The position numbers and the translations under genes are program-made. 64,000 nucleotides of DNA from Liolophura sinensis (taxonomy: Eukaryota > Mollusca > Polyplacophora > Chitonida > Chitonidae), in the NCBI RefSeq assembly GCF_032854445.1, contig NC_088298.1, positions 14,247,504 through 14,311,503 of the forward strand, written 5' to 3'. Position 1 is the first letter of the stretch. The number at the start of each line of letters is the position of its first letter. The notes below the pieces were generated by a model, which had not been told where the DNA came from, searched no databases, and was given only the letters and a program-made list of their open reading frames with translations. Of this stretch, positions 3,047-64,000 are shown piece after piece.

Positions 3047-3439
3047 TGAAGATTTGTAGCTTTATGTTAAAAAGTATACAATATGATGACATGTACATGT
3101 CACTGCTGGTTACCAGTTGTATATTTATGTTACCAATAGCTTTAAATTCCTATCAGATAAATAACTTAATCAATAAATTAATGTTGCAAGTTTATAATAC
3201 AAAGATAATAATATTAATTTTATATTAATTTATACCTAATTTTTGAATCGCTCAGATTTCTGACCATAACGGAGACCAGTCTTGGAATGGAACAGTATAA
3301 GAACGACTACGCGAGAGTTGTATTGTTTATTTGATATATTTGTTTATAGCACCGTTGTATTTATGTAAACTATAAATACTAAAAAAATATAGCAAGGTTT
3401 ATGGTTTGAAGAAACCAGACATAGCTTGGTGGATGCCAC

Positions 3440-6375: not shown

Positions 6376-6462
6376 GTACTTCCGTACGTGGGAAGGCCTG
6401 ACAGCAACCTGCGGATGGTCGTGGGTTTCCTCCCACCATAATGCTGCCCGCCGTCGTATAAG
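6376..6462 (+). mobile_element. SINE fragment joined to the 56-bp array
   Basis: The fragment spans CGTACGTGGGAAGG to GCCGTCGTATAAGT and is 5'- and 3'-truncated. The 56-bp minisatellite begins at its 3' break. Confidence 0.8.
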
Positions 6463-19951: not shown

Positions 19952-21742
19952 TCAAACAACCGACTCATTCCGTCTGGGTTTGAACAACTTGCAGTAGAAT
20001 TTTTTCCACGAGCTCACAGTTTTTCTGGACCATATCCAGAATCCCGAAGTGATTCCCACAATCACGGCCATGAGGTACTTAATCATAAATACAGTGAATT
20101 CTGGGTAAACAGGTCGAGTCCTTTCAACAGGGCATCTGAAGTCACTATTAGTATACACATAATAATCTGGGAAGAGCATGTGAAAGCGATTACATGCCAT
20201 GGCATACCAATCGGCATACCACTGGGCACGCCCAGATTGCTCGTAGAAATAACATGCGATGACTATTGTGGCAGGAACAGTATATAGCACTGAAAATATG
20301 CCTATGCGAACCATCAGCTTTTCCAGTTTGTCTGTTTTTGTTCCATCACTCTTCATGATTGTTCTAATACGGAAAAGGGAGACAAACCCTGCCAGCAGGA
20401 ACGTTGTACCGATGACCAGATACACGACCAACGGTGCCAGGATAAATCCACGAAGTGTGTCAACATCGAAAATTCCTGTGAAACAAACTCCACTGAGCAC
20501 ATCGCCTTCAACTTGCCCCATAGCGAGAATGGCTATGGTCTTCATTGCTGGAACTGCCCATGCTGCCAAATGAAAATATTGTGAGTTTGCTTCGATGGCT
20601 TCGTGACCCCATTTCATACCAGCTGCCAGGAACCATGTTAGTGTCAATATCACCCACCAGATGGAGCTAGCCATGCTGAAAAAGTACAGCATCATGAACA
20701 GTATCGTACATCCTTCCTCTTTGGTTCCTTGGGTGATTACAGACTGCATGTTATTTTTGTCGAAATCATCTGTGGGAGGTTCGAATGGTGGCTGGCAGGA
20801 CACCTTATCGTTAAGAATAAATCCTGTCACATAAGCAGTCGACACCATAAAGTAACATCCTGACAAGAAAATAATCGGTCGTTCCGGATACCGAAATCTG
20901 GTCATGTCAATTAAAAACGTCAGAACTGTGAATAAAGTTGATGCTAGACAAACACTTGACCATATACCAATCCACAAGCGTGAAAATCTTCGTTGATTCT
21001 GTTGGAAAAACATATTATGACAAGGAGCTCCGCATTCTTGCCGAACTTCTTTGCCGTCCAGTTTGAATTTGTACTGATCATGCTCTCTGGTGACGTAAAC
21101 TGGTGGACAAGCCACATCGTAAACTCCAGAATGGGGATCCACTGGGGGCCTTGTTCTGTTTCTCTTGCCGCCGTCTGGAACTTTGGGGAACCAAGGCTTT
21201 TGTGTCTTTCCTGGGTTAACAGGGGACTCCGTTGTTGGTTCAGTGTTGTTTTCGCCGACACATAACCCCGCCTTGGGGAACTTTTCACATCGTAAACTTT
21301 CGGGCCACTGAAAGCCGAACTTGTTCATAAGACTTTCGCAGCCACTTCTGGCCTGTTCGCACAAAGATCTGCACGGCGGGATGGCTTCTTCGAGCACCGT
21401 ACAAACGGGAACGTACATGGCGCAGAGGAAAAACTTCAAATGTTGACTGCACTGCACTTTTACCAGCGGAAAGAACTGGTGAACTTCCAACCCAGCATCG
21501 TCCTGTTTTTGGTGATTCAGCAAATTCGGCATGATCGTTTCGTTATACTGTATGTCTTTGCACAGAGGTATGGTTATGTGCTCGCATTTTTGATGGTGAG
21601 GTAAACCTTCAACGTTACCATGCACTTGTGTGTAAGTCTGTCCGCTTGCCGCAGAGCCTCCATTTTGGAGCAGAGTCACTAGACTCAGCAACACCACGGT
21701 CACTTTTCCCACATTTTTCCACGCTGAATGCAACACAGCCAT
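19952..21742 (-). CDS. FZD1/2/7: Frizzled receptor, Fz1/2/7 class (intronless)
   Basis: Seven-pass Wnt receptor of the plasma membrane, signalling through Dishevelled. Numbered from the ATG at 21742, the protein has 596 residues. A hydrophobic signal segment lies at about 14-26. The cysteine-rich Wnt-binding domain has ten cysteines (53, 61, 98, 107, 114, 124, 128, 135, 152, 161). Seven membrane segments lie near 256-279, 289-310, 345-372, 387-408, 430-456, 476-500 and 549-571. The Dishevelled-binding motif KTVSSW is at 574-579 and the PDZ ligand ESVV ends the chain. Possible N-glycosylation sites are N67, N165 and N195. The open frame reaches a GTG at 21763, but the first in-frame ATG is at 21742 in a strong context (A at -3, G at +4), and a TGA lies just upstream of the GTG. 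CRD wording such as the NKFGFQWPE segment and the PDZ end fit Fz1/2/7 rather than Fz4, Fz5/8 or Fz9/10. A single coding exon is common in this class. The frame has no breaks. Confidence 0.97.
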
Positions 21743-22160
21743 CTTCCCGATTGCGTTAGGCACAATCCCAATATGCTGTCAGTCTCCTAGCATTGCCTTT
21801 CGTAGCTCATTTCCACTGAATATTGTGTAAATCGTTTACAACTCACATGCTTTTACATGCCCCCGTCGCTCGCCACTGAAAATGGCTGCCTTTGTGCTGA
21901 GCACTTTGAAACAGACAAAACACGCTCAGGCGGTTTCGAGGCACTCCACTGCATTCCCTTCGCGCTGGCTTTCTATCTAGTAAACACTGAGACTTCGCCG
22001 CTGGGCCAAAGGGGCCCGCGAAACCACCCGTAACGAGAACAGCCAACCAGAGTCGACCGTCCCAGCACTGCTGGCGTTTGATTGGTCGGCTTTAATTAGA
22101 CATTATCACTTGACGGCTGTTTAATCTACCCCTACCCCTCCTTCCCCTCAGCTGTGTGTC
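21743..22160 (-). promoter_or_regulatory. FZD1/2/7: Candidate Frizzled 5'UTR and promoter region
   Basis: This stretch just upstream of the Frizzled ATG is richer in G, C and CpG (21840-22080) than the surrounding AT-rich DNA. An inverted CCAAT box (ATTGG, 22081-22085) reads as CCAAT in the direction of the gene. A homeodomain-type TTAATTA core follows near 22092, and a CAGCTG E-box lies near 22149. No TATA box was found at a convincing distance. The transcription start cannot be fixed from sequence alone. Confidence 0.35.
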
Positions 22161-31734: not shown

Positions 31735-32275
31735 TTTGATGCCTCCCTGAATGATTGGGAATCTTCGTTTTCTGTTCATTTTTTGGTGCAAGCAATTGGC
31801 GTCGGTATAATGTTACGACGGGTGTCAGGTTTGGTGTTATCTAAATGAAAGAGGGGCCTCCGTGGCCCAGTTGGTTAGCGCGCTAGCGCAGCGTAATGAC
31901 CCAGGAGTCTCTCACCAATGCGGTCGCTGTGAGTTCAAGTCCAGCTCATGCTGGCTTCCTCTCCTGCCGTACGTGGGAAAGTCTATCAGCAACCTGCGGA
32001 TGGTCGTGGGTTTCCCCCGGGCTGTGCTCGTTTTCCACCCACCATAATGCTTGCCGCCGTCGTATAAGTGAAATTTTCTTGAGTACGGCTTAAAACACCA
32101 ATCAAATAAATAAATGTAAATGAAAGATGCCTCTTCTGGTGTTCATCTCTGGACATTGTTTGGACATGGACGGGTGCGCCCACATGCCTTACTGGTACAA
32201 TGTGGCTGGGAGAGGTGTCAGGTTTGGTGTCATCTAAATGATACATGCCTCCTCTGGCGTTCATCTTTGAACATT
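31735..32275 (+). repeat. Short tandem duplication interrupted by a SINE
   Basis: GTGTCAGGTTTGGTGTTATC followed by TAAATGA and GATGCCTC occurs once around the SINE insertion and again at about 32215-32270 (GTGTCAGGTTTGGTGTCATC). A poorer copy starts near 31726. Removing the SINE restores two neighbouring copies. Confidence 0.6.
31853..32116 (+). mobile_element. tRNA-derived SINE, full length, with target-site duplication
   Basis: It begins GGGGCCTCCG, with A box TGGCCCAGTTGG (31863-31874), a perfect match to the Pol III consensus, and B box AGTTCAAGTCC (31932-31942). The ~57-nt spacing suggests a class II tRNA-like head with a long variable arm. It ends in AAATAAATAAATG. TAAATGAAAGA flanks it (31842-31852 and 32117-32127). 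Confidence 0.93.
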
Positions 32276-41663: not shown

Positions 41664-41924
41664 CAACAAAGAAACATCCGCCTCATATTTTCTCAGAATG
41701 TTAGTTCCAGTGAAGATAAACTAGTGCCATTAGTTTACTCCGGTAAGTTGTACTGACGATATTTTCCATGTGCGTAATATGTCATGGGTGACAGAGATGT
41801 AATGTGAACTTCATGTAAGGCAGCATGGTGGCTCACTGCCACCACACTTCCGAGGACAATAGAAGCACGGGAACTTTGAAAAATCCCTCTTCCAGTATGG
41901 TACTGAATCCATATCTCATGTGAC

Positions 41925-42985
41925 TGAATAGCAAGAACTATAAAGCCATGACCTGCTGAATGGTAAACACTATAAAGCCACGACCTGCTGAATGGTAAGT
42001 ACTATAAAGCCACGACCTGCTGAATGGTAAGTACTATAAAGCCACGACCAGTTAAATGGTAAGTACTATAAAGCCACGACCTGCTGAATGGTAAACACTA
42101 TAAAGCCACGACCTGCTGAATGGTAAGTACTATAAAGCCACGACCTGCTGAATGGTAAGTACTATAAAGCCACGACCCGCTGAATGGTAAGCACTATGAA
42201 GTCACGATCTGCTGAATGGTAAGTACCATAAAGCCACGGCCTGCTGAATGGTAAGCACTATGAAGTCACGATCTGCTGAATGGTAAACACTATAAAGCCA
42301 CGACCTGCTGAATGGTAAGCACTATGAAGTCACGATCTGCTGAATGGTAAGTACTATAAAGCCACGACCTGCTGAATGGTAAGCACTATGAAGTCACGAC
42401 CTGCTGAATGGTAAGTACTATAAAGCCACGACCTGCTGAATGGTAAGCACTATGAAGTCACGATCTGCTGAATGGTAAACACTATAAAGCCACGACCTGC
42501 TGAATGGTAAGTACTATAAAGCCACGACCCGCTGAATGGTAAGCACTATGAAGTCACGATCTGCTGAATGGTAAACACTATAAAGCCACGACCTGCTGAA
42601 TGGTAAGCACTATGAAGTCACGATCTGCTGAATGGTAAGTACTATAAAGCCACGACCTGCTGAATGGTAAGCACTATGAAGTCACGATCTGCTGAATGGT
42701 AAACACTATAAAGCCACGACCTGCTGAATGGTAAGTACTATGAAGTCACGATCTGCTGAATGGTAAGTACTATAAAGCCACGACCTGCTGAATGGTAAGC
42801 ACTATGAAGTCACGATCTGCTGAATGGTAAGTACTATAAAGCCACGACCTGCTGAATGGTAAGTGCTATAAAGCCACGACCCGCTGAATGGTAAGCACTA
42901 TGAAGTCACGATCTGCTGAATGGTAAGTACTATAAAGCCACGACCTGCTGAATGGTAAGCGCTATAAAGTCACGACCTGCTCTTT
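41925..42985. repeat. 32-bp minisatellite, about 33 units
   Basis: The unit is 32 bp with core CTGCTGAATGGTAAG. At least three variants alternate: GTAAGTACTATAAAGCC, GTAAGCACTATGAAGTC and GTAAACACTATAAAGCC. Runs of variants recur in the same order, which indicates block duplication. The start is decayed (about 41905-41950). Confidence 0.94.
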
Positions 42986-44456: not shown

Positions 44457-44725
44457 TTTATTTATTTATTTATTTGATTGGTGTTTTATGCCGTACTCAA
44501 GAATATTTCACTTATACGACGGCGGCCAGCATTATGGTGGGTGGAAACCGGGCACAGCCCGGGGGAAACCCACGACCATCCACAGGTTGCTGCAGACCTT
44601 CCCACGTACGGCCGGAGAGGAAGCCAGCATGAGCTGGACTTGAACTCACGGCGACCGCATTGGTGAGAGGCTCCTGGGTCATTACGCTGCGCTAGCGTGC
44701 TAATCGACTGAGCCACGGAGGCCCC
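44457..44725 (-). mobile_element. tRNA-derived SINE, full length, with 13-bp target-site duplication
   Basis: This is the same element as at 2776 and 31853, with a TTTATTTATTTA-type tail at its 3' end (low coordinates). GTGTTCTGCTCAA flanks it perfectly (44444-44456 and 44726-44738). It is probably the youngest insertion in the window. Confidence 0.95.
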
Positions 44726-45309
44726 GTGTTCTGCTCAACCATTCATGTCTACAACACAACTCATGAATGTAATCATCATTAACAATGTATCTGACAGGTG
44801 TACCTCTATGCATGCAATATGCTGTGTACCATGTTAGGGCTGCTTCAGTATATACAGTTTTGAACTTTGCTTTGGACATTCTTTATCCTACTATTTTTGT
44901 ATTAAGCATGTGTACTGTATAATATACTATGTCATTGAGAGTCTCAAGAAGAACCTGCTGATTTTTTGTGTTTTTACCCTCTGGGGAAATGTACTAAAAT
45001 TTATTATTATTAATTATAAGAAGGCTATCAACAACACCTGCAGAGCACTTTCAACATTTCATGCTTAAATGTGACCACCCCCAAAAAACATCTCCGCCAT
45101 GTGTACATTTACCCACAATGTACATTTGCTATGTACATTTGATTCATCAGACACCACCAGTAACGTTTTGTCATGCCAACAAAATATACCATCAACATGC
45201 CAGAATCAACAATGCAGAGGACAGTAACATTATCACTTTCACCTGTACACATGTTGAAATTCTAAAATAAGTCGGGGTTCTCTGTCGCTAACATTCTGAA
45301 AAAATATGT

Positions 45310-45540
45310 CAATTAGTTAGCGCACTGGCACAGAGTAATGATCCTGGATCCTCTCACCAATGTGGTCGCTGTGAGTTCAAGTCCAGTTCATGCTGGCTTC
45401 CTCTCCGACCGTACACGGATGATTGTGGGTTTCCATCAGGCTCTGCCCGGTTTACTCTCACCATAATACTGGCTGCCGTATTTTTATAAGTAAAATATCC
45501 TTGAGTACGGCGTACAACACCAATCAAATAAATAAATAAA
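45310..45540 (+). mobile_element. SINE relic, nearly full length
   Basis: Runs from AGTTAGCGCACTGGCAC through GTGAGTTCAAGTCCAG to CACCAATCAAATAAATAAAT. The first part of the head (A box) is lost, and the body has several small gaps. Confidence 0.8.
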
Positions 45541-46794
45541 AAAATAAGTCGTAAACTAAACAAAGACATAACTTTCTTTCGTTGTCAGAGTGGTAAACAG
45601 AGTGCATGCATGCTGAAAGCTTTACTCCAGCAATAAGACTATAAGACACGCGAAGCAAACAATTCCTGCATATCATATAATGTAAATGTATTGAAGTTTA
45701 GGTTGTTATCTTAAATTTCCACGTCAATGGAAGTATCACTTTTAATCAACCCTGTACCTGTCCGAAATATCAATTATTATAGATATCAATGAATTAAAGA
45801 TAGAAATGTCATGCATTAAAATCACACCAATAAGCTTAATACTGTAAGTTAGGTAATACTACTCTTACTAGCAGCATAGGACAACATACATGTTTTTCCA
45901 CTTATGAAGCACATAAAAATATAAAACTGCATAAAAATTCAGCCATATCAAACTCAATTTTCATAATTTAAGTGATACTTAAAAAATGTAGAAGAGCAAT
46001 AAAACATAAAATTTTAATTCAAAACTTGAAAATACTGAAACAGGTTCCTTCCACCAATATCAAAATATCACACACTTCCCAGTAAGCTTAAATCTATATC
46101 ATTTTAATTTGATTAAATTAACACTCAATTTACTCAAAGCATGATGAAGATCGTTGGATAAACTGCAATGTTGAAGACTACAGGCAATCATTCAATAAAT
46201 TAATTACAACAAGATCACAGACAAGCGATAATAAAAGTGTGAAGATTTAATTAATGATTGAAGCCATGTTTCTCTGATAAATAAAGTGCTCAGTTTTAGT
46301 TTTAAAACAGTTTTATGACCTTCATTGCAAAGGTCAAATCTCCTAACAGTTAATACATGTACAGTATCTTTCACATTATATCTACCTGTATATCTACTTT
46401 TAATAAGTCTGTTCAAACTTCTAACCCAGCAGTCATTTGACAAGTACATTATAATATTATGAACTTACAACATAGTTTTATTTTGCCCTTTCCAACACTG
46501 TACACTCATGGATAGAAAATATGGATTTCAATAATACTGTAACGTTTTTTACCCAGTCCATGATTCCTTCTGTGAGTTGTGATTTGGGCTGCTGAAAGTT
46601 TTACCTGTATACCCTTTAACACAATCTCAATCAAATTCGATGTGTTCCTTCTATGTCGGCATAAGTTAAAGTTTGTCACATTTACACTGGCTATGCTGAA
46701 ATGTTTAAAATCGAAATTGTATCGACTGAATCTATATATTTACGAGTTTAATTTGGATTACAGTAATTCTTCGCCCTTTTTGCATAATTGCAAG

Positions 46795-48270: not shown

Positions 48271-48520
48271 TCAAAACTTAGCTTGAAGTTTCTGCAAGTC
48301 AAATTCTGGGATGTCCAGGCCTAACCACTGCAGGAGTTCGAAATACGAGTAGACAAAAGCTCGCGTAATATCCTGTGTGTGACCTAGACCTTTGGCCTCT
48401 AGCATTAGCTCCCGGTTGAACTTTAACCTTGCCTCCAGTTCCGCTTGTTTCCGAGCCATTTCCTCGGCCAACTTCCGTGCTTCTTCCAGGGCACGCGCAG
48501 CTTCTTCCTCACGCCGAATT
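48271..48520 (-). CDS. Coiled-coil gene, terminal coding exon
   Basis: This exon has 250 nt; its first base completes an Arg codon and it ends at TGA (48271-48273). The acceptor is TTATTTCAG. It finishes the charged helix (REEEAARALEEARKLAEE...), then changes to a compact tail with aromatics and leucines (FVYSYFELLQWLG) and an acidic end. This tail is the most family-specific part of the protein and the best query for identifying the gene. Confidence 0.9.
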
Positions 48521-51500
48521 CTGAAATAACAAATTTGGTACATGTCTTATTACATGAAGTTTAGATAGGACTGTCGAAACTAACACTTCCACATTCCTGA
48601 CTTGTTTACCATAGGACTTGCCACTGGACCAAAATCAATCCCAAAAAACAAAGCAATGAAAGATTTTCTTCAAAGAATATCTGAGACATTTTAAACTACA
48701 ACTTGACCGTGCGAGGGAAGTTAGAGCAAGTTAAGACCCCATGTATATGTATTACAGGTGCACTACTGGTGTTGATTGTACAGTCAGTGTGCTGAAACTA
48801 AAGTTAATGAAATCAGCGCGACAAAACTCACTCTGTTCCTTTTGAAGTTCCTGTATTTCGCTAATAATTTTCTCCAATTAATGTAAAAAAAAACCCCCAA
48901 ACAAATGATATATGTACTAGTTTAACAGTGGTTACAGATTCAGCTGAGGAATGATCAAATAACAGCTGGCCCTACAGAGTATGCTTTTAACATGGGTAGC
49001 TGAAGCTAATAAACTCGGCTAAATTTTTCAATATCTGATCACTCTTCTGTTCTACAAGTCACATGGCATGGTGATTTAATGGCTAAAAATTCTGTGATTT
49101 ACATGTACAGTATATTGCTGTGATTTACAGTATATTTCTGTGATTTACAGAACATTTCACATTTTTTTGAGTTTAACAAGCAAAATACTAGGAAGCCTCA
49201 AAATTCTATTTCCTTTAAGTTAAACTGTTTTCCTGTTGTCTGTTTGGGCCAGGAGTGTGTCGCAGTCTTCAAAATCAGCACTTTATTTTACAATTCCTTG
49301 GGTTGACTGAATTTAGTTTTCCATCTCACTTGAGTGTTACGTATCCCCTGACTGACTAAATGATTGATTAAGATTAAACTGTGAGCACTGTTCCAACAAT
49401 GGACAAAGAACAGACATTCTACTCTCTGAAAAAGTTTCTGTCTTCAACCACTCACAATGCAAACTCTTTTGTCTTTGGAGATAGATTATCTGCCATCCTA
49501 TTAAATTTCCATTATCCTGCCTTGTTACACAGCATCTGGGCAGATGCTTTGATACCACTGCATTTGCATCTTTCTCTTGCTGAGTTTATCTCTGAAAGAA
49601 TTCACTCACGCATCAAGACTCGCTCTGTCTCACCCGAAGAAAGCCAGCTCATTCGAGGGAGCTGATAACGCATCCATTGTGGCTGATAAAGACATTCACG
49701 GTTTTCAACAGCCAAATTTCTAAACTTTGGAAAAATCAATTCTTTAAACTTTTTCTTTAGCTCCAAACAGATCAGTTCAGATGCAAGCACAGAATTAAAT
49801 TACAGTGAAATGTTGTGTCTGTATTCGATCTACTTTCGTCCCTCTAAAGAAACGTCCACATGGAGCAAACTTTAATAAAATCTGGCAAAAGAAGTTTTGA
49901 ACTGCATTGAGGCTCAAATCCAAGCCTCTTATAAAACAATAGTGTAATTTTTATTGTGTTATTCATAAAAACATGTCACAAGAAATCTAACTGATAAAGC
50001 ATCCAGCCAGTCAAGATACTTTACCGAGCCATGACATTTCCAACAACAAAGCCAATTTTCCTAAAAAAGGCTAACATGCATAAGCACATAGCTATATATA
50101 CCATACGTCTGACCTTTGTGCTGTAATTTATACACAAACATGTAAATTCTGGACAAAATCCCACACTGGTTTACATTAACAAACATCCAACTTCCAATTG
50201 TAAATTTCTAACAAGTTAGTTTGCATAAAACCTCTACATACACACACACTGTATTTGACCTACACCTATATCCATTTTGCTTGATAATGACAGTTGCATT
50301 TATTAATCTTAAAAAAGGTGATTTGAGGTGTGTTTGGGAGGTAGTGTTTCATCTAACTGGAAAAATGTCAGTTTCATCCCCAGAAAATAATCATTTATGA
50401 CGTACACTTGCCTTTAAACAAACACTTTTGGGAAGGGGGGGTTTGGGGGGAGCAAAATCTGCATGTCACAAACTAAGCATTCTGTACATCAATAAATTTT
50501 TTTTTTCTGAAAAGGGAAACAAATGATGCCAAAATCAAACGGTTGTAGAATGGGTCTTTTACATATTGTGTTTACTCCCGACATACAACATCATTTAGAT
50601 ATGCACATAATATGCACACCTGTAGTTTGAACTCATTGCCTTGAAATGGTGGAGGAGTAAGTCACAAGGAGTACTGAGTCATGCCGTATAAATGGTGATG
50701 CAACAAATGTGACCTGATTGATGCCATGACCCTTCAGTATGTCAGGTCTTGTACCACAACATCTGAAGACGGTCTATTACATCATATACTGTGGAGATTT
50801 AAATGCCAATTGTCAATCACACAGCGGAACCTCTCTAGTTCTATCAAATCATCAAATCAAACCCACAAACAACAGCTTGGGGTGCAGTCCTACATACAGG
50901 TTGGGGTGAGGGGAGTGAGACTGCAGTGTTTGTGTATGCCCCGCTGCCCTCCAACCTCACCACAGAGATCGAATGCCCTTTGTTATGGGGCACACACCCT
51001 CTTCAGCTCTTCACAGACACAAGGCAACAAAAAAAGGCCTATCAACACAGCCCGGGGGGCAAAGAGCTAAGAAGGTTGAAGTAGCCAGTTGTTGGCATTA
51101 CTGACAATAACCTTTGTATCATAACTTTTAAGAGAAGAGTCCTTAGGGATTAACACTACTTTGGGATACTGTACTAGAACCTTAAAAGAAAAGAAGTAGG
51201 TTAATACATTGGGTGGCGAAAAAAAACTTAGCATGTATGTTTTTTTTTGTGTGAAATAACTGTTTTTTTTTAAATCTTCTTGCCAGGGAAACCTGGAGAA
51301 AAAATTCATTATCATTATGATCTTTGATCAACCTTTCCACATGTAAACATTTTTGCAAATGGTTTAAAACCTGCCAATTGTAAAAGACACTGAGATGAAC
51401 AAGGGGAAAATTCTCTTCTACATCCAAAACATTTTTCTACAAAATGACAACCATCAGGTGAGTTCTCCATTTACTTTACTATCCACCAATACTACCCACC

Positions 51501-54500
51501 ACATGACCATCACCCAAGTGGGGGGTGAGGGGGTGGAGGGGAGGGGGTGGAGGGGTGGTGTTGGAGGGGTGGGGGTGGGGATGAATGGTTATGTACCATC
51601 AGTAAAGTCCACACTGCAGTTAAAAATGTCCTATTATATGGGAAAAGGCGTAAACATCAGATTGTGTTCAATGAAGAACACACAAAGGGAAGAAAGTCGA
51701 CTGCTGGCCCTGAGCACAACCATTGCTAGTCTCTAGGTCCCCACTGCTACCCGCCACCCCTCCCCCCCTCCCACCCACAACCCCCTACATCCACTCCATG
51801 ATGCTCTCACCACTCTTGTCCACCAGTGTCCAGTTACAGATAATACAAGTGGTCAACTGCCTGACCACTGTCCACTTGAAACTCCACAAAGAGGATCTGT
51901 TACCAGTAATCCCCCACCTTATTAGCTCCCTTTGTCTCCATGGTCTAGAATTACAGTTCCTGTGATCCAGCCCAGGGTGTCCTTTGTCCTGTCCAAATCA
52001 CAGGACACATGGAATCCTTCCCAGTGTTCAGGGTGAGACTTTAAACTGTCATGTGATAGGGGCTTGAGGCCCTCATTCTGACAAGGTAAATGTTTTGATT
52101 TTATCCTGTGAGGAACTTAAACTGCTGGGTGATATGCATGGGTACACTGTAACTCCAGATAAATAGTGGTCTGAGCATACACCATCTGAAGTACCTGAGT
52201 GCTCAGCATACAAAATAGAATATAATACCGAGTAACTTTGAACTTTCTGATCATCAAGAAACCACAATCTCATGGAAGATGACTAAAAAGAGACAGGACC
52301 TCCACATTACACAGGTCATCTATTTCATAATGGTGTCACTTTCTCCCTCACCCCTTGTTCAGCTCTTTGTTTATGACTACAGACGGGATCTCCACATTAC
52401 ACAGGTCATATGTTCAATAATGGTGTCACTTTCTACCTCACCCATTGTTAAGCTCTATGTTTATGACTACAGACAGGATCTCCACATTACACAGGTCATC
52501 TATTGCATAATGGTGTCACTTTCTCTCTGGCCCCTTGTTAAGCTCTGTGTTTATGACTACAAACAGGATCTCCACATTACACAGGTCATCTATTGCATAA
52601 TGGTGTCACTTTCTCTCTGGCCCCTTGTTAAGCTCTGTGTTTATGACTACAAACGGGATCTCCACATTACACAGGTCATCTATTGCATAATGGTGTCACT
52701 TTCTTCCTCACCCCTTGTTAAACTCTGTGTTTATGACTACAAACAGGATCTCCACATTACACAGGTCATCTATTGCATAATGGTGTCACTTTCTCCATCA
52801 ACCATTGTTAAGCTCTGTGTTTATGACTATAGACAGGATCTCCACATTACACAGGTCATCTATTGCATAATGGTGTCACTTTCTCCATCACCCCTTGTTG
52901 AGCTCTATGTTTATGACTACACACAGGATCTCCACATTACACAGGTCATCTATTGCATAATGGTGTCACTTTCTCCCACACCCCTTGTTAAGCTCTGTGT
53001 TTATGACTACAAACAGGATCTCCACATTACACAGGTCATCTATTGCATAATGGTGTCACTTTCTCCATCACCCCTTGTTAAGCTCTATGTTTATGACTAC
53101 ACACAGGATCTCCACATTACACAGGTCATCTATTGCATAATGGTGTCACTTTCTCCATCACCCCTTGTTAAGCTCTGTGTTTATGACTACAAACAGGATC
53201 TCCACATTACACAGATCATCTATTGCATAATGGTGTCACTTTCTCCATCACCCCTTGTTAAGCTCTGTGTTTATGACTACAAACAGGATCTCCACATTAC
53301 ACAGGTCATCTATTGCATAATGGTGTCACTTTCTCCATCACCCCTTGTTAAGCTCTGTGTTTATGACTACAAACAGGATCTCCACATTATACAGATAATT
53401 GCATAATGGTGTCACTTTCTCCATCACCCCTTGTTCAGCTCTGTGTTTATGACTACACACAGGATCTCCACATTACACAGGTCATCTATTGCATAATGGC
53501 GTCACTTTCTCCCACACCCCTTGTTAAGCTCTGTGTTTATGACCACAGACAGGATCTCCACATTACACAGGTCATCTATTGCATAATGGCGTCACTTTCT
53601 CCCACACCCCTTGTTAAGCTCTATGTTTATGACTACAGACAGGATCTCCACATTACACAGATAATTGCATAATGGTGTCACTTTCTCTCTGGCCCCTTGT
53701 TAAGGCCTGTGTTTATGACTTAGAGCTAAGAAGGCATTCTTTTAATTCATTCCCTGACTGGGAAAGGAGGAGACTGGTGCTGTAATTAAATACAGATGTT
53801 TGAGGATGGTGTGTGTACACAGAGGGGCTGGACACCCAAGAGGGCTGGGTGGCAAGAGCTGGGGATGGAGTTGGCCAGCTGGGAAAAGGAAGGCAGGATT
53901 CAATCAGCAAAGGAGGGTCATATGATTGGGGTGGGGTGGGGTGGGGTAACTAGTGTAACAGTGAAGCTAAAGAGGCTGTTCTAGGGGTTTGGGGTAAACT
54001 GGCTGTAAAGAATCTAATAACTTAATGGTAACACTGCTGAAGGGCTAAAATGTTTCGAGTTTGAAGTAAGACTCGAAAGAAACTAATCACAGTGTAACTA
54101 AAATGCGGTGAGGGTGGGGGAAGATTGCAGTAGGAGCAGAGTAATTTGGAACTGCTATGTTGTACAGAGGCGCAGGGAGTACGGAAAATACTAAATGGAT
54201 GAGTGCTGGTAAATGCGATTCACCAGCAGACCGGCAGGGAGTCAAACATTACTGTGGATGCTGACCCTATAGTTAATGCTGAGGAAAAAAGGGCTTTGTA
54301 TAATAAAAGGCTTTCAGCATAGAGAGTAAAACCAGCATAGCCAGGAGAGTTTGATATTTGGCAAATGGTCACATGTAACACCTGGAATACGGCTTCTTGT
54401 CTCTCTAGCTCAGGTAGGGTTTTATACTGCATGTTCATATAAATGCATACATGGTGGCCAGTTACATGCCTCCAATAGCACCATAGCTTAAGGAGAATTA

Positions 54501-57500
54501 ACTACAACAAAATGCAGTATTGATGTTAAATGACAATGGAAGGGCAGACATACATATATCAACACACTTGATACAGTGACTGTATTTCAGGTACTTCATC
54601 ATGGGAGCAAATTTGCAATATTAGCAAAAAGGCAATTGCACAGGGTATCATGCTGTCTTGCACTCGGGCTCTTTGTTGAGTGAATGGCGCATGTCTAAAG
54701 ATCTGATGTCTAGAATTTGACTGACTGATCACTAGACTAAGCAACTTACAGAGCTCCATTCCTCTGCTAAAAAAACTCTGAAACCAAGATTATGATTTTA
54801 ACAAAACTGAAGAATCTTATGACAAAATATTTCTTCTCAAACTTTTTATTTTTCAGTCTATTTATTTTATATCTATTTTTTGGCAGGTGTTTCGTTCCTG
54901 GTCAAAAATGAGGTCAGCGATGAATTTATACTGGGAACACACAACAAACTAAGCGCTCCAACTGAAGTGTTCTTCCCTGTCTCATGTAGCCTTTACTAAC
55001 ACCGTCAGTGTTGTCATCGAGGAGTGCCTGATGTTTTGTACTGTAAAACAGCATTACGGTTGGAGATGACCAAATCGAGAAAGAAACCAGGACACTGATT
55101 TGAAATCAGGGACAGATTTGGTTCAGACATAGTTAGCTGGTTAAAATCCCTCCTGAAGTAAGGAGACAGCATCAGTGTTCATCCTCAGGATATAGTGCCT
55201 TATTGACACCAGATTGAGGTTTCCCATGTGAGCCTGCGGGGGGGCCTAGCTGGACTTGGTTCCAGGCAGACTAAACCTATTGTCCTTCTGATCCGATACC
55301 TCCCGGCTGAAGCGACCCTGTAGCCACCTGGTGAGGAGGATCTAATCTGGCCACGCTGTGGGACGCCCTCTTTTCATTTTCATGCCTGCTCACAGATTTA
55401 GCGGAAGCATCTGATTCGTACATTGTCGCCAGCATTTTGTCTCCCATGGCACATCTTGGTAAAACTTAAAGACGATGAGAGACTGCTGAGAGAGATTAGG
55501 GGCTATTTTCTGTTTTTCTCACACTTGATTTAGCGAGTGGAGAGGGACATGCTGAGATAACAATTTTCATAGAATTATTTTGCTTCTTATCTGAATATTA
55601 AAAGTGGAATGTATTAAATGTGTATAAAGTTAACAATACCCTACACTACTGTGTCTGAAATACAGCAAAAATGAGGTTCCTGACTATGCCTAATTTTGAT
55701 AGTTCTATTGATGTTTAGAGGATTAACTGAAAAGAATGACAAAAATCTAAGCTTCAGCACCAAAAGTAACTCTTACTTGCTTCTATAATTGCTCTTTCTT
55801 GAGCAACTTTTCAGGGCAATGTCATTAAACTAAAGAGTACATCCCTATCACCATGACAAGTGATTCTGAAATGAGGCTACAAAATTATGCCTGCTGTGTA
55901 AAGTTAGCACGCTTATTTTAAGCAATATTTTTTCCCCTTCTGGTACATCTAAATGTCAGCCTCATAAACTCACTGCAAAAGTTGTTTTGCACAATTCTGT
56001 CCTTGGCTAAAAACCACTTTGCTGAAACGTCAGTGTGATCGTTAAAAGTAATGTCTACCCGAGTAGTTGCCAGGCAGTAAAAGACATTCTCTAATTTGGT
56101 AAAAACCTCATGCCCATAACTCTGTCTGAAGAGTGCTGTTGAGGTATTAAGTCTACATGGGACTGGCTCCAAACTAACCACTCTGACAAATACAGAAACA
56201 TTTCTGGGCATTGTGGAGTGGGCTGTTGACATTAGGTATATCTGAGGAAATGGGGGTCTCACAATGGCCGCCAGTTACTTTTTCCAGCCGTAGTTCCAGC
56301 CCAGTGTTTTTCTTTGCGATCCTCTTAGGGGCGATATTGTCCGGCAGAATTCGGCAAGCAGGGAGGTGAAATCCGTCAGAGCAAGTCTCGGTGGAACTTT
56401 TCGGCGGCAATCTCCAGTGTGTTGACTCATGAGTAATTGATTGATTGAGCAGACGGACATGTAATCCTGCCATTTATTCAGCTTTGATGTCGGGGCAGGA
56501 GAAAGCAGGCGCCCGATGCCGGACTACACGGACAGCTAAGGCTACGCGCTTAAGTCCAATAAAACGCGTCCATTACCAAAATCCTTCTGGGGAGGCACTG
56601 AAAAGCTCGGTCATGTGATATATTGGAATTTTTCGACAGAAGGGCTTTGTCGCCTAAGAACAGACATGGCCTGAGTGGCAGAGGAGTTGTAATGGAAATG
56701 TGACTAATTGATGTCTTTTTCCACCGAAGCCAACAGAAAATCTCCCTTATTTATCTCAGCATTACATCTCCATGTACGCATTTGGTAATTTTCCAATTCA
56801 GTACTTAAAGCGAACCCTTTCGGGAGAGGATATACCAGCACTAGAAGAAAAATCCCCTAAACAATGGTGTAATGAACAGTTAACAACGCTAACATCTGAA
56901 ATATACATGTACTGTGTAGAGGAAGGTTACAGCTAGATCATTCAGCAGATAAACCTAAAATGAACTAAAAATCCCCCTTGTAACTGTGTACCCAACTGAC
57001 GATATACAAGCCCGATAATGTAATTCTTGAACCTCTTGGTGTGTTTACAAGGTGTATATTTAAGCATATTCTGAAGCCACTGTTCTGTGTAGACTGATCA
57101 AATTATACTTTTTGTGAAACGCTGAAAATGGCCAATTAAAACCAACAGTTTCCAAAATCAAATTGTAAGTGTGCATAAACTGCACAAACAATGGCTTTAT
57201 TATACGTGAACATATTGAAGAATTAGGGTATATACATGTTTTGTAAACAGGAAGGTGATGTCAGAATGACAGATGACATTTAAATACTGGTTTAACGTAA
57301 CAGTAATTCCGTTAGTAGTGATTTTGATTTTAATGGAAATGAAAAATGTTAGGCCAAAATTTTTTCTTAAAACGCAATTTTATTCTTAATGCATATTTTA
57401 TATCTCCTAATTACCCATCACTTTTGTGCATATTTCATGTCAATGGATGAAAATTTTTGGAAACGACGTCAGCAATGAGAAGAACAGCATCCCACTTGTT

Positions 57501-60500
57501 ATTCTAGATTACATATCATTGATTCTATTGCTATTAACAACTGGCTGAGACCACTCTGTCTTTTGGATTACTCTTTCTGGACAATGGTGAGGATACTTTT
57601 ACTTGCAACCAATTTCTAAATATCCTCCCCCAATCTGATACTGTATGTTCAGCCAAATCAGCTGTATCATTTCTAATCATCAGAGTGATAATTTATTTTC
57701 ATAAAGTCTATCAGCTGAATGGTCTACATGGTGGATAGGTATTGTTAGTGACTCTGAGGTCGCTGGTTCGAAACCCAGAGTGGGCAGAGCCAATTTTCTC
57801 TGCTACGTACACAAAAGTGTAATCCTAATAACAACAATCCAGTTTGGACAGTGAGAGATTACTACAGTGAGTGAAATTTCTTACTCCAACTGTTGAACCT
57901 TGAAACCAAATCTCTTACTCCAACTACTGAACCTTAAAACCAAATCTCTTAATCTAACTGTTCAACCTTAAAACCAAATCTCTTAATCTAACTGTTCAAC
58001 CTTAAAACCAAATCTCTTACTCCGACTGTTCAACCTTAAAACCAAATCTCTTACTCCAACTGTTCTACCTTTAAACCAAATCTCTTACTTCAACTGTTCA
58101 ACCTTAAAACCAATTCTCTTACTCCAACTGTTCAACCTTAAAACCAAATCTCTTACTTCAACTGTTCAACCTTAAAACCAAATCTCTTAATCTAACTGTT
58201 CAACCTTAAAACCAAATCTCTTAATCTAACTGTTCAACCTTAAAACTAAATCTCTTAACCTAACTGTTCAACCTTAAAACCAAATCTCTTAATCTAACTG
58301 TTCAACCTTAAAACCAAATCTTTTACTCCAACTGTTCAACCTTTAAACCAAATCTCTTAATCTAACTATTCAACCTTAAAACCAAATCTCTTACTCCGAC
58401 TGTTCAACCTTAAAACCAAATCTCTTACTCCAACTGTTCAACCTTAAAACCAAATCTCTTACTCCAACTGTTCAACCTTTAAACCAAATCTCTTAATCTA
58501 ACTGTTCAACCTTAAAACCAAATTTCTTACTCCAACTATTCAATCTTAAAACCAAATCTCTTAATCTAACTGTTCAACCTTAAAACCAAATCTCTTACTC
58601 CAACTGTTCAATCTTAAAACCAAATCTCTTAATCTAACTGTTCAACCTTAAAACCAAATCTCTTACTTCAACTGTTCAACCTTAAAACCAAACTAGTTTC
58701 AAGGCCGGATTATTACTAATGTGCCCCCTGATGTACTTATGAGCCCTAAATGTAGAAAATATGTAGATTATTTTATTCTCAACACACTACCAGGGTCTTC
58801 TGGAGTGTGCTGGGAGTGTGTGGAGAGTGTGACAAAGACTGAGACTAAGGGGAGACAATCGCCAATACACCCCCATCCCTTGACACTAGGTCACCTCCCT
58901 TGATCTGTCTTCATTTATGCCATTATTTAAAAGCAAGATAAGAGAATTGGAAGCTCATGTCAACAAGATATTTTCCAGAAGTTTTGGCTTCACATGTCAT
59001 ATATTCATTTATTTATTCATTGTGGACAACAATGGCTATTTATTCTGCACTGACTTTTTCCTACAATCCTCTCTCTTTCTCTTTTCTTTTGGTGTCTGGC
59101 TAGATTTCAGTGAAGAACCACTGGCTTCACTTCAATACCACTACATATGCTCCACACCGCTTTCACTGAACAACTACACATTTATAGATGACAAACTTTG
59201 AATTATTTGCTTGGGAAAACCAATGAGAATGGAGGACTCCACATTATTTGCCAATGCTACTTGACTGACTGTTCTCTAATGCCATACACAAGAACTTTTC
59301 ACTTACTTCTGTCATATATAATGACACACTCCTGTGTTAAATGCCAATCAAACAAATGTCAGTCAAACAAAGCAAATAAATAGATAAACAAATAAATTTT
59401 CCTGACCTTGCGGCCTCCTCCTCTTTTTTCCGTCTCTCAGCGTCTTCCTTTTTCTTTTTCTCGTAAGCTATCCTCTCATGTTCAGCCATCTCATACAACA
59501 TCCTCTCCTCCTCCAGCCGTCTCTCCTCTTCCTCCTTCTGCCGGATTAACATTTCCTCTGGGAACACACAACATCATACAACAGGGTAAATTAATTCATT
59601 TGATCAATGAAACACACAACATCATACAACAGGGTAAATTAATTCATTCGATCAATGAACACACAACATCATATAACAGGGTTAGTTTATTCATTCAATC
59701 AATGAAACACACAACATCATGCAACAGGGTAAATTAATTCATTCGATCAATGAACACACAACATCATACAACAGGGTTAGTTTATTCATTCGATCAATGA
59801 AACACACAACATCATACAACAGGGTTAACTTATTCATTCGATCAATGGACACACAACATCATACAACAGGGTTTATTTATTCATTCGATCAATGAAACAC
59901 ACAACATCATACAACAGGGTTAATTTATTCATTGGATCAATGGACACACAACATCATACAACAGGGTTAGTTTATTCATTGGATCAATGGACACACAACA
60001 TTTATACAACAGGGATAGTTTATTCATTCGATCAATGGAACACACAACATCATACAACAGGATTAATTTATTCATTCGATCAATGAAACACATAACATCA
60101 TACAACAGGGTTAATTTATTTATTCGATCAATGAACACACAACATTATACATCAGGGTTAATTTATTCATTCGATCAATGAAACGCACAACATCATACAA
60201 CAGGGTTAATTTATTCATTCAATCAATGGACACACAACATCATACGACAGGGTTAGTTTACTCATTCGATCAATGGACACAACATCATACAGCAGGGTAA
60301 ATTTATTCATTCGATCAATGAAACACCCAACATCATACAGCAGGGTAAATTCATTCATTCGATCAATGAAACACACAACATCATACAACAGGGTTAATTT
60401 ATTCATTCGATCAATGAAACACACAACATCATACAACAGGGTCAATTTACTCATTCGATCAATGTTTAATGGCACACCACTGAATAAGATGCTGGAGGTC

Positions 60501-63500
60501 AAACAACTGGTTGGGCAAATTGGTGAAGTTGGCCCTGGGTATAGCTTACAGCTAACAGCTTCATTTAAAGTTGAGGACTTGTCAGGGTGATATCATCAAC
60601 AAGAATCACTGGTCAAAGGTTTGCATACATACCACACATCAAGGAACTTTTTTCCTTTAGATCAATGTCAGGGTATGAACCATTATTGTTTAAATATATT
60701 ATACACCTGTTGTATCGTTTCCTTTTTTGTTTCATCGCATAAGAGCATGCTTTTTGGAAATAAAGAGTAGTATATTTCTGTTCCAGCTCAGCCTCTCTTC
60801 CTTTTATGGGGTACACCAAAACCCAACCAATCCTTTTTGCTCCAGCTCAGCCTGTTTTCGTTTTGTCTCGTTTCATCAGTCTGATGACATACAAGAAACT
60901 CACATAATCGATTCTGCTCCTGCTCAACCTGTTTGCATTTCATTTTCTTCATTGTGATGACATTCGCCAAAAACTCACCCAATCGTTTCTGCTCCTCCTC
61001 GGCCTGTTTGTATTTCATCTCCCTCATTCTGATGACATACACCAAAATCCACCTCATTGTTTCTGCTCCTGCTCAGCTTGTTTGCATTTCATCTCCCTCA
61101 TTCTGATGACATACACCAAAACTCACCTTATTGTTTCTGCTCCTGCTCAGCCTGTTAGCGTTTCATCTCCCTCATTCTGATGACATACACCAAAACTCAC
61201 CTCATTGTTTCTGCTCCTGCTCAGCCTGTTAGCGTTTCATCTCCCTCATTCTGATTACATACACAAAAACTCACCTAATCGTTTCTGCTCCTGCTCAGCC
61301 TGTTTGCATTTCATCTCCCTCATTCTGATGACATACACCAAAACTCACCTAATCGTTTCTGCTCCTGCTCAACCTGTTTGCGTTTCATCTCCCTCATTCT
61401 GATGACATACACAAAAACTCACCTAATCGTTTCTGCTCCTGCTCAGCCTGTTTGCATTTCATCTCCCTCATTCTGATGACATACACCAAAACTCACCTAA
61501 TTGTTTCTGCTCCTGCTCAGCCTGTTTGCCTTTCATCTCCCTCATTCTGATGACATACACCAAAACTCACCTAATCGTTTCTGCTCCTGCTCAACCTGTT
61601 TGCATTTCATCTCCCTCATTCTGATGACATACACAAAAACTCACCTAATCGTTTCTGCTCCTGCTCAGCCTGTTTGCATTTCATCTCCCTCATTCTGATG
61701 ACATACACCAAAACTCACCTAATTGTTTCTGCTCCTGCTCAGCCTGTTTGCCTTTCATCTCCCTCATTCTGATGACATACACCAAAACTCACCTAATTGT
61801 TTCTGCTCCTGCTCAGCCTGTTTGCCTTTCATCTCCCTCATTCTGATGACATACACCAAAACTCACCTAATCGTTTCTGCTCCTGCTCAGCCTGTTTGCG
61901 TTTCATCTCCTCCAGTTTGCGCTGGTATTCCTCTTTCATCCTCTTTTCTCGCTCCATCTCCTGTTGAGCTTTTCTCAATCTCTCTCGCTCCATTTCCTCC
62001 TCACGATTTTTCTCCTCCTCTTCTTGTTGCTTTTTCAATCTACAAATGATATAAATAAATACATCTGGAATAAATGGAATAAAATACAAATCAAACCATA
62101 TGCATCTCTTTACAAAATTTAATTAACTCATAACTTTCTAACACTCAGTTAAATATGACAGTGTGCTAAAAATATGCATTTGTTTGATGTTGCAAAAATC
62201 GTTGTTATTCTATGTACAAAAATGCATGCATTTATTCTGTACTGCTTAATTCTCCAGAATGGATTGTTCCACATGCATTACATTTAGTTAGAAGCCAGAG
62301 AGAACCCAAGGCAAATAATTGTCGAAACTAAATGCACCAATTTCGCTTTTTTTTTTTTGGCAAACTAAGTTGAAAATTGCCTAAATGATAACCTAAAGCA
62401 AGTATTTATGTGAGGTTTAATAGTTTGGGGCCATTGTGAATATTTCCAACAGGGTCTAGCCGACAATGAGTTTTGATTGTGAAACCTTCATTTTGAAATG
62501 ACACGACGATGGTTGCCTTATGAAAGAGAGTGTCAACAACCATACCTTCTTTCTTCAGCTTTCCTTCGCCGCGTTTCCTCCAACTCTCGGTTCAGCATCT
62601 CCTGACGCTCCATCTCTTCCTTCTCTCGTTTCAGCTGCTCTTCTCTTTCCCGGCGTTTGCGCTCCACTTCCTGTCGCCGCTTTTCTGCCTGTGCAGCTCG
62701 CTTTGCTGCACGTGCGTCTTTGTTTGATATAGTGTGCAGTTGATTGGAGGAGGAGTCCTTAAAATCATTAAAAAAAATCTTTAATACTTAAACATCTAAA
62801 TTATTCTTCTTATTAAAGTCTACCTTCATGCTGATATCAAAATCCATACATCAACACATCATAATACTAGATGCTTATGTGTCGTATTTGACCTATGACC
62901 TATGACACTCTATACATGTAGCATGTAATCACAAGATTATTGAATGTACCAAACAAACACAACAAACATTACAACTATAAAATTGAAATCTTTAAAGAAA
63001 TATTGATATTTTACTTGATAAGAGTTTCTACGAGCATTCTTTATATTTTTGCAGTGTTTCTGTAAAGATGACAAATCCATTATAACTTTCTACAGTTTTA
63101 GTGATAAATGTTCATTAATATCCAGGGCTAGCCAATCATACCCAGCTATAAACATGCTTTCTAAACAAGTACTAGCAACTCAGCAGTGTTTATGAAACAC
63201 ATACACATACCTACTTCTGTGCAAAGTATGTATAAGAAAGCACGATTCCTGAACGGTAAACAAATAACTATAAAATTGAGGAAAATGTGTACATATTTAA
63301 TTTGGAAGCTGTATCTCAACAATATTAAAAAACTGCGTGCACAATTAATACAAAGACCTCATTACATTTGCTATAAAGGAAAAAAAAAATCTGCCAGAAA
63401 AAAAGAAGAACATAAAGGAAAAATTGTTCGGATTTTACCGAAATGTCAGCTTCATTGTCTGTGACGTCAAGTGTAGCAGGGGAGGGAACTGCAGATTTAG

Positions 63501-63612
63501 CCGATTTTGGAGATTTTGGAACTTCTGGTTCAGGAACAGATTCATCGTCACGAACGAAGACAAAATCAATATCTTCTGATCCAGATTTTGAGGGAGCCGG
63601 GGAAAGTGGTTC
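48271..63612 (-). CDS. Coiled-coil protein resembling KIAA2012 (DUF4670-like), 3' five exons, 5' end outside window
   Basis: Five exons join on the minus strand: 63612-63439, 62757-62546, 62039-61867, 59557-59407 and 48520-48271. Every junction has AG and GT in the expected places, and phases agree (0, 2, 1, 2). The joined length is 960 nt, exactly 319 codons plus TGA. The protein starts with an acidic, Ser/Pro-rich linker. About 200 residues of Glu/Lys/Arg-rich single-helix or coiled-coil sequence follow. The last ~45 residues are less charged and carry aromatic and Leu-rich wording (SYFELLQWLGL). From memory the helix and this tail fit the vertebrate KIAA2012/DUF4670 family, whose function is unknown to me. 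Other charged coiled-coil families (MAP7-like, trichoplein-like) could look alike in the helical part, so the family name is less certain than the gene structure. Introns are 681, 506, 2309 and 10886 nt; the last two hold four minisatellites. Confidence 0.8.
51519..51585. other. G-rich tract (quadruplex-prone), plus strand
   Basis: Repeated GGGG runs separated by one to four bases (GGGGGTGGAGGGGAGGG and similar). It lies in the last intron of the coiled-coil gene and would be C-rich in its transcript. Confidence 0.6.
51738..51797. other. C-rich tract facing the G-rich tract
   Basis: Several runs of four to seven C residues with short spacers lie about 150 bp from the G-rich tract. On the sense strand of the minus-strand gene this is G-rich and could form an RNA quadruplex. 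Confidence 0.55.
52290..53722. repeat. 90-bp (30-codon) minisatellite with a long open frame
   Basis: About 16 tandem units of 90 bp each contain GATCTCCACATTACACAGG. Because 90 is divisible by three, one plus-strand frame stays open for 375 codons (52279-53406) until a 4-nt deletion in one unit brings in a stop; a second frame of 88 codons then opens. The predicted unit (LHITQVIYCIMVSLS...) is unlike any protein I know. Unit differences include many amino-acid changes. It lies inside an intron of the minus-strand coiled-coil gene, so I regard it as noncoding. Confidence 0.9.
53927..53947. other. Four-run GGGGT motif
   Basis: Four consecutive GGGGT steps meet the simplest quadruplex rule (four G runs, one-base loops). 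It lies just beyond the 90-bp array. Confidence 0.7.
57050..57245 (+). repeat. Dispersed repeat, copy 2
   Basis: The partner of the copy at 46795 (AGACTGATCAAATTATAC, TTTTTGTGAAACGCTGAAAA, CCAAAATCAAATTG, AATTAGGGTATA). By eye, similarity spans nearly 200 bp with small gaps. It lies in the last intron of the coiled-coil gene. Confidence 0.65.
57725..57785 (+). mobile_element. tRNA-like relic next to the 34-bp array
   Basis: A perfect B box GGTTCGAAACC (57765-57775) is preceded by GACTCTGAGGTCGCT, as in tRNA-derived elements. The A-box region is decayed. Confidence 0.4.
57873..58692. repeat. 34-bp minisatellite
   Basis: About 24 tandem units of 34 bp have the core CCAAATCTCTTACTCCAACT and a variant with AATCTA in place of ACTCCA. 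The array lies in the last intron of the coiled-coil gene. No open frame of note spans it. Confidence 0.93.
59407..59557 (-). CDS. Coiled-coil gene, exon 4 visible here
   Basis: This exon has 151 nt: two bases finish a Glu codon, then 49 codons, then AG of the next codon (donor AAG|GTCAGG). The acceptor is TTCCCAG. The product is Glu/Lys/Arg helix interrupted by MLYEMAEHERIAY. The 48-bp minisatellite runs up to within about five bases of the acceptor, so the usual upstream tract is supplied by repeat sequence. Confidence 0.88.
59560..60465 (-). repeat. 48-bp minisatellite abutting the 3' splice site
   Basis: About 19 units of 46-49 bp run up to the acceptor of the exon at 59557. On the minus strand each unit has a TTAACCC or TTTACCC segment (fits a yUnAy branch site) and the tract TGTTGTATGATGTTGTGTG. 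The proximal unit leads directly into TTCCCAG. The array therefore repeats the sequence that precedes the acceptor. Confidence 0.92.
60770..61906 (-). repeat. 74-bp minisatellite carrying exon end plus 5' splice site
   Basis: The unit is 74 bp, repeating exactly every 74 bases from 61873 down to about 60985, with two or three decayed units to about 60770. There are roughly 15 units beyond the copy inside the real exon. On the minus strand each unit reads through the last ~40 nt of the exon, then AG|GTGAGT and ~34 nt of intron. Ten extra units keep AG|GTGAGT unchanged; three more keep GT with altered flanks. Confidence 0.93.
61867..62039 (-). CDS. Coiled-coil gene, exon 3 visible here; founder of the 74-bp array
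   Basis: This exon has 173 nt. The first base completes an Arg codon with the previous exon, and the last base starts a Glu codon. The acceptor is TTTGTAG and the donor is TTAG|GTGAGT, a near-ideal 5' splice site. It encodes more Glu/Lys/Arg/Gln helix (KKQQEEEEKNREEEMER and onward). Its last ~40 nt and the first ~34 nt of the following intron match the unit of the 74-bp tandem array that fills the next kilobase. Confidence 0.88.
62546..62757 (-). CDS. Coiled-coil gene, exon 2 visible here
   Basis: This exon has 212 nt, entering at phase 0 and leaving after two bases of a codon (donor AAG|GTATGG). After a short polar start (DSSSNQLHTIS) the product becomes a continuous charged helix rich in Arg, Glu, Lys and Gln, with no Pro or Gly to break it. 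The Ala-rich entry (ARAAKRAAQAEKRR) resembles my memory of the start of the DUF4670 helix. Confidence 0.85.
63439..63612 (-). CDS. Coiled-coil gene, exon 1 visible here (acidic Ser/Pro linker)
   Basis: This exon has 174 nt, 58 codons, and is phase 0 at both ends. The acceptor is a T-rich tract ending in TTTCAG and the donor is TCG|GTAAAA. The product is rich in Glu, Asp, Ser and Pro, with repeated PKSPKSAKS-like wording, so it is probably disordered. The rather weak donor makes this the least certain of the five exons. No further exon was found between it and the right edge of the window. Confidence 0.7.
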
Positions 63613-64000
63613 CTGAAATCAAAAATGATTAAACAAATTTCCATTTTTTTTTCCATTTGTAAATATCAAATGAACACTGACATTTTTCACAACAAAATAA
63701 TATGAGGAAACTCAAAACTGTAGCCGAAAGCAACCCTTTGAGTAAAATTCACACCTATTATAAAGATAAAATCAGGCCTTACAACACGACTTCTCAGATT
63801 CACGTTCACAACGTCACTCCTCTCACTTCGAAAAAAAAAAAAAATCACTTTAAGTAAGAAGCCCAATTTTTGTCAATAATTATATCATGCTTGAATCAGG
63901 CGACCATGAATGTCTTTTATACAGTAAAACTTAGCAAAGGACATCAGAAATCAGCATTGTACTTTCACTGGACAGGGACAACTCTATATTTCACGTTTTG

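Follow-up and report, generated by a model that had tools for sequence, protein, structure and literature searches.

Different minisatellites at the two ends of an intron in a KIAA2012-like gene: probable intron growth from the splice junctions

How introns lengthen, and how the splicing machinery picks one among many equal sites, are open questions that are touched by a single intron in the 64-kb stretch of DNA analysed here (the window, at its full length). This 2309-nt intron (59558-61866, minus strand) lies between two coding exons of a KIAA2012-like gene, as judged from the sequence and its open frames, and 86.4% of it consists of two tandem arrays (1092 + 903 nt), one with a 74-bp unit at the donor side and one with a 48-bp unit at the acceptor side. 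A first reading of the letters without database searches (the sequence-only reading) had singled out this interval with its two arrays; Tandem Repeats Finder (TRF) and the open frames bear it out, with corrections that are given below. We suggest that this is probably an ordinary spliceosomal intron enlarged at its ends by two minisatellites that arose locally and separately, whose growth was anchored at the junctions and is hidden by splicing.

Pfam was run on the exons of this gene. When joined, these exons match PF15709 (DUF4670), which we take to be the KIAA2012 domain, with residues 10-201 corresponding to profile positions 330-521, two stretches of equal length (E 2.3e-26; 93.7 bits against a curated cut-off of 27). 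The match thus covers the C-terminal part of the 521-position profile, and over the spliced model it amounts to no net gap across the intron. The pieces that flank the array-related exon end map to profile positions 330-431 and 452-521, leaving 20 positions for the 20 intervening residues.

The donor-side array is reported by TRF at 60812-61910 with 14.8 copies and 91% matches. Listing of its units shows that each comprises 44 nt of exon end followed by 30 nt of intron start, and the earlier description of the unit as holding the end of the exon together with the 5' splice site therefore stands. That reading also had an array of about 1.1 kb starting at the donor; the array is real, but it begins 44 nt inside the exon, at 61910, and thus outside the intron interval to which it had been assigned. 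The last letters of the exon are ...CGATTAG, and GTGAGT follows at 61866; inward of this real donor the array carries 12 decoy GTGAGT donors, giving 13 in total. With nhmmer, 16 matches to the donor unit are found including the exon's own, the innermost being partial and ending near 60775. For the innermost copy (60811-60738) none of 500 dinucleotide shuffles reaches the score, a candidate next copy (60737-60664) is marginal (its score is reached by 23/500 and 61/500 shuffles under two scorings), and the rest of the middle gives no donor-unit match (395/500 and 186/500 shuffles reach the score). A weak additional acceptor-type match near 60667 is likewise marginal (nhmmer E 0.2; 82/500 and 28/500 shuffles). 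The middle of about 300 bp, formerly taken as unique, is thus a region of about 309 bp between the arrays (60466-60774), but it contains marginal traces of extra copies.

Variation among the copies indicates the direction in which this array arose. Relative to the commonest letter, 20/484 cells differ in the exon-like part and 6/330 in the intron-like part, and the exon-like part is thus the more variable of the two. By our own reading of the copy table, changes at the six variable exon-like sites comprise three missense changes, two stops and one silent change, and stop codons in the exon frame are present in copies 9-11. Because the exon end fills exactly 20 profile positions, whereas missense changes and stops are present in the copies, we take the exon to be the source of the donor array; on this sequence evidence the exon end is ancestral and the intronic copies are derived. 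GTGAGT is intact in 10 of the first 11 intronic copies, and 5/99 cells are changed in the nine splice-site columns versus 21/715 elsewhere (our own count from the copy table); no coding or splice-site constraint was detected in the copies. Differences from the exon end number 2, 2, 2, 2, 2, 2, 1, 3, 3, 3 and 6 in copies 1-11 (Spearman 0.70, p 0.017), with degenerate copies further inward. Copies 2-4 and copies 5-7 are identical at 221/222 positions, a similarity reached by 2.0% of shuffled copy orders for a block size of 222 bp that was picked after seeing the data. The array therefore shows signs of turnover near the exon and of decay inside, and the exon edge itself may be kept intact by selection. 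The inner flank of the founder is degenerate and leaves no defined duplication breakpoint (microhomology).

Each donor that is skipped adds 74 nt, giving exons of 247 nt, 321 nt and more in place of 173 nt, and use of any of the 12 decoys brings the joined exons to a stop after 66 residues. Frame-keeping alternative donors were accordingly rejected (12/12 reach the stop after residue 66). Coding use of the array was rejected as well, on the grounds of the stops in copies 9-11 and of the single silent change at the six variable exon-like sites. In copies 0-10, counted from the exon's own, the decoy and real donors all agree with the U1-complementary consensus at 7/9 positions.

The acceptor-side array (TRF: 59563-60464, 19.0 copies, 90% matches) is of a different kind. 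Its 48-bp unit consists of an A/T-rich part, a branch-site-like stretch and a U/GU-rich stretch, in agreement with the sequence-only reading, which had described branch-site-like and pyrimidine-rich sequence here. Among the 19 copies the branch-site-like motif is CTAAC in 4, TTAAC in 6, TTTAC in 5, TTGAC in 1 and none of these in 3. The intron ends in ...GTGTGTTCCCAG at 59558, and the array of about 0.9 kb, previously described as ending at the acceptor, is real but leaves a gap of 5 nt before the exon, and the AG falls outside it. The idea that both arrays carry splice junctions is not supported, as the acceptor array lacks the AG and exon sequence. On the sense strand it contains 3 AG in 902 nt versus 50 from base composition, which fits a founder taken from the AG-free zone that would lie directly before a working acceptor.

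Aligned locally, the donor unit resembles the acceptor unit over short stretches only (scores 7 and 9, with no shuffles made for this pair). Similarity or pairing between them is not evident at these unshuffled scores, and the proposal of two separate expansions holds in so far as the units look unrelated. Folding of RNA gave z values of -1.07 and -1.86 for two donor segments and of -2.02 and -2.56 for two acceptor segments, and folding of DNA, done on both strands for one segment of each array, gave values between -2.62 and 0.79. RNA or DNA structure was set aside as an explanation, as these z values are too weak to build on. The coordinates of all features are listed in Table 1.

Table 1. 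Features of the intron, its gene and the other long minisatellites of the window
Feature	Position	Strand	Description
Upstream coding exon	61867..62039	-	Open frame ...EEMKRKQAEQEQKRL; acceptor TTTGTAG, donor TTAG/GTGAGT; Pfam DUF4670; final 44 nt (61867-61910) serve as copy 0 in the 74-bp array
Authentic 5' splice site GTGAGT	61861..61866	-	Outermost of 13; the only one of the 13 with the frame open into the next exon
Donor-side 74-bp array	60775..61910	-	15-16 copies including the exon's own; 13 GTGAGT, the real donor among them; TRF, unit listing, nhmmer and shuffles
Intron middle	60466..60774	-	About 309 bp without clearly recognisable repeats; marginal traces of more degenerate copies
Acceptor-side 48-bp array	59563..60465	-	19 copies; consensus unit lacks AG and has branch-site-like and GU/U-rich stretches; TRF, alignment, AG count
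Authentic 3' splice site CCCAG	59558..59562	-	Outside the 48-bp array
Downstream coding exon, same gene	59407..59557	-	Frame E/EMLIRQKEEEERRLEEERMLYEMAEHERIAYEKKKKEDAERRKKEEEAAR; donor GCAAG/GTCAGG; Pfam; exon end recounted from outputs
Last coding exon, same gene	48271..48520	-	After a 10.9-kb intron; Pfam
56-bp minisatellite	6489-7149
32-bp minisatellite	41924-42981
90-bp minisatellite	52293-53720
34-bp minisatellite	57874-58692

Combining these data, we suggest that an intron of roughly 0.4 kb, the size obtained when the extra copies are subtracted, would have grown to 2.3 kb. At the donor side a 74-bp segment across the exon/intron boundary has been multiplied in tandem; at the acceptor side a 48-bp segment is arrayed just 5' of the AG, and its founder probably lay at the acceptor. 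On each side a chance duplication presumably came first. Copy number would shift by slippage or unequal exchange of at least one unit at a time, as the repeated 222-bp block suggests. Such growth would be tolerated because the mRNA is unchanged: the upstream exon would be set by its own acceptor and the first 5' splice site. Exon definition would favour the shortest exon. At the other end, tolerance would follow from the true AG being the first one past the last branch-site candidate. The array copies themselves would have no selected function, in keeping with the lack of detectable constraint. The profile match that is continuous across the intron and the finding that only the outermost donor keeps the frame agree with this scheme, for predicted splicing in one haplotype.

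Several observations weigh against such a scheme, in particular at the acceptor. The acceptor array does not cross the boundary, which makes an origin from the acceptor weaker than that of the donor array from its junction. The AG-free unit is in itself not rare: 394/8496 48-mers of the next intron (arrays masked) and 560/8074 and 628/8074 of those sampled outside arrays on the two strands of the window lack AG, so 4.6-7.8% of other 48-mers are AG-free by chance, as is one other of the 14 unit-strands of seven array units (34-bp unit, plus strand). Because an AG-free unit makes the whole array AG-free, the 3 AG in 902 nt represent one inheritance and not 19 tests. Changes that create an AG make up 3/45 of those among the copies versus 23/144 of the possible ones, only a slight depletion and one obtained without a mutation model; these counts, with that limit, show no selection against new AGs. 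Exclusion of the AG is also not general, as the boundary repeat of the amphioxus globin gene BflGb6 includes the acceptor and part of the exon. At the donor side, GTRAG-like motifs are also found in the 32-, 90- and 34-bp units, and a donor-like motif alone is thus not special. Finally, the encoded protein is by eye a low-complexity charged coiled coil, in which profile alignments are permissive, and the window is rich in long arrays, nine of which together cover 7012 bp (11.0%).

This last observation leads to the alternative that the two arrays coincide with the two ends by chance in a minisatellite-rich stretch, the junctions neither seeding nor favouring arrays, a view that competes with anchoring at the junctions and not with the description of the arrays. 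When the arrays were placed at random 200,000 times, one of three introns had different arrays at its two ends in 2.4% of trials, and in 39% an array touched one or more of six junctions. This test is crude and post hoc: the nine arrays were hand-chosen from 34 TRF rows, it covered the three introns of the KIAA2012-like gene, and three of the six intron ends were entered 1 to 5 bases off. Moreover, the other two arrays of the gene, those of 34 and 90 bp, lie in the interior of the 10.9-kb intron, where the nearest junction is about 0.7 and 3.8 kb away. With 11% of the window in long arrays and 2.4% for a random two-ended intron, the assertion that two such expansions are hard to dismiss as chance was too strong, and the two-ended position is modest evidence, more so as the finding was picked from a scan; the repeat character itself is far beyond chance. 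Against coincidence, the donor array copies the junction itself, which leaves a junction founder not in doubt there, and the acceptor array is AG-free and leaves 5 nt between itself and the exon. On balance we regard coincidence as possible but doubtful. A quite different view is that the donor array is regulatory, its 12 decoys acting as a sink for U1 or as a poison switch that directs some transcripts to nonsense-mediated decay. The decoys do equal the real site in their match to the U1-complementary consensus (7/9 positions in copies 0-10), each leads to a premature stop, and in the human IFI6 minisatellite downstream repeat units serve as donors (PMC4526556). Yet the donor columns show no extra conservation, inner copies decay, and neither donor segment has an exceptional RNA fold (z -1.07, -1.86), and we consider such a role improbable.

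The array could also mark an intron in the making, that is, the recent birth of an intron or of part of it via tandem duplication of an exon segment with AG/GT, as in the Rogers model. The unit does contain the exon end and AG/GT, as this model and the amphioxus proposal require, and the potato RdRp gene is reported to have gained an intron through boundary-crossing duplication (PMC4974935). Donor and acceptor should then derive from one duplicated segment, and here they do not: the acceptor side has only short local matches to the donor unit, a 309-bp middle lies between them and the downstream exon opens with non-array sequence, from which we conclude that a duplicated donor unit was not the source of the acceptor. 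Intron gain is therefore, in our view, very unlikely. Least credible is that the arrays, or their joint presence, result from mis-assembly; long near-identical arrays are difficult to assemble, but the copies carry site-specific variants and decay in a graded manner and both flanking exons are intact and in frame. The exact copy number may be wrong.

With regard to the source of the units, eight of the nine long arrays, those with units of 56, 32, 90 and 34 bp among them, are without a match in the rest of the window, and the ninth has one weak 39-bp match. This lack of matches suggests that the long arrays were locally born, and a transposed origin of their units was rejected, there being no convincing match elsewhere in the window. 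Separately, the 32-bp unit (41924-42981) carries a donor-like GTAAGC on the plus strand, at a place where the check for exons consisted of the list of open frames. The 56-bp array begins about 26 bases past a fragment (6382-6497) of a repeat resembling a short interspersed element (SINE) and was perhaps seeded at the fragment's edge. This interspersed SINE-like repeat occurs at 44457-44728, 2777-3048, 31853-32115, 45317-45545 and other places, with 12 further matches in 64 kb; it would be of a kind typical of molluscs, and pieces of it gave no match in the sequence collections and papers searched.

The gene content of the window fits an animal, and scans of the window for tRNA genes and Rfam families gave 0 matches. 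Downstream of the KIAA2012-like gene (48271-64000, minus) and on the same strand lies an uninterrupted open reading frame of 607 aa for a Frizzled protein of the FZD1/2/7 type (19958-21778, minus), whose best solved relatives are Frizzled-1 and Frizzled-7. FZD7 and KIAA2012 are presumably neighbours on human chromosome 2. The two names are adjacent entries among human association loci in a published list (PMC6455049). The pairing of an FZD-type with a KIAA2012-like gene supports the gene assignment, and Frizzled and KIAA2012-like genes may be an old conserved gene pair.

If the two minisatellites did grow from the junctions, a simple prediction for splicing-tolerated intron growth can be made genome-wide: the donor is copied with its site and the acceptor without its AG. 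Copies of a donor downstream of the real donor, or of branch-site and U-rich sequence without AG, would be invisible in the mRNA and would survive. We raise, as a speculation that we ourselves think unlikely to hold, the idea that splice junctions are preferred nurseries of minisatellites, since splicing hides their growth, and that introns in minisatellite-rich animals, perhaps well outside the lancelets, grow from both ends. If true, two-ended growth would have a signature in a donor unit with a splice site, an acceptor unit without AG and inward decay. The dozen near-identical 5' splice sites past the real one, each of which breaks the protein, would also provide a natural test of exon definition and of the choice of the outermost site.

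The closest known systems are the "mirages" of amphioxus, minisatellites that span exon/intron boundaries; for these and the other published cases our comparison draws on parts of the cited papers. Both 5' and 3' boundaries can be duplicated, regular splicing seems undisturbed, BflGb6 haplotypes differ in copy number, and both crossing-over and a link to intron evolution have already been proposed (PMC3087553). PGBD5 and TnC were later added to the amphioxus cases (PMC3902484), and unit lengths are 10-72 bp in Adh3, about 150-160 bp in the globin genes BflGb6 and BflGb9, and 60 and 108 bp in PGBD5. In so far as the sequence-only reading proposed a new mode of intron growth it was mistaken, mirages having been published for amphioxus genes (PMC3087553). 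The donor array is like a mirage in that its tandem unit spans the exon/intron boundary, splice signals are duplicated (13 GTGAGT) and the unit length is of the same order; the acceptor array does not span its boundary. Unlike in the mirages, one intron here has different arrays at both ends, which make up 86% of its length, and the AG is left out of the acceptor array. Amphioxus PGBD5, with two different arrays at neighbouring exons, comes near to the present case. In the literature on boundary minisatellites that we searched, as far as its contents were accessible, no intron was found described whose two ends carry different arrays, which is not proof of absence; amphioxus Adh3 could be a two-ended case. 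On the sequence evidence, the arrangement described here thus appears to be a variant of a known mirage-type anatomy. Should the host be a lancelet, this would be a further mirage, unusual for its second array; should it be a mollusc or another animal, a phenomenon that in the sources used here has been named only in amphioxus, with IFI6 and some human paralogs as related cases, would be wider.

Among other systems, human IFI6 (6-16, G1P3; Turri 1995) is alike in that array units act as 5' splice sites (PMC4526556), and differs in that downstream units work as donors, from which alternative transcripts result, whereas here every inner donor leads to a premature stop. In earthworm metallothionein, first-intron minisatellites are described with no link to a junction in the part of the paper used here (PMC12783039). 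Tandem repeats at exon/intron boundaries that possibly form introns have been discussed for human paralogs in segmental duplications (PMC2812944). These paralogs, the Rogers model and potato RdRp (PMC4974935) share with the present locus a duplication across a splice boundary that alters intron structure; in contrast to them, the intron analysed here appears to have grown, with nothing indicating that it was created.

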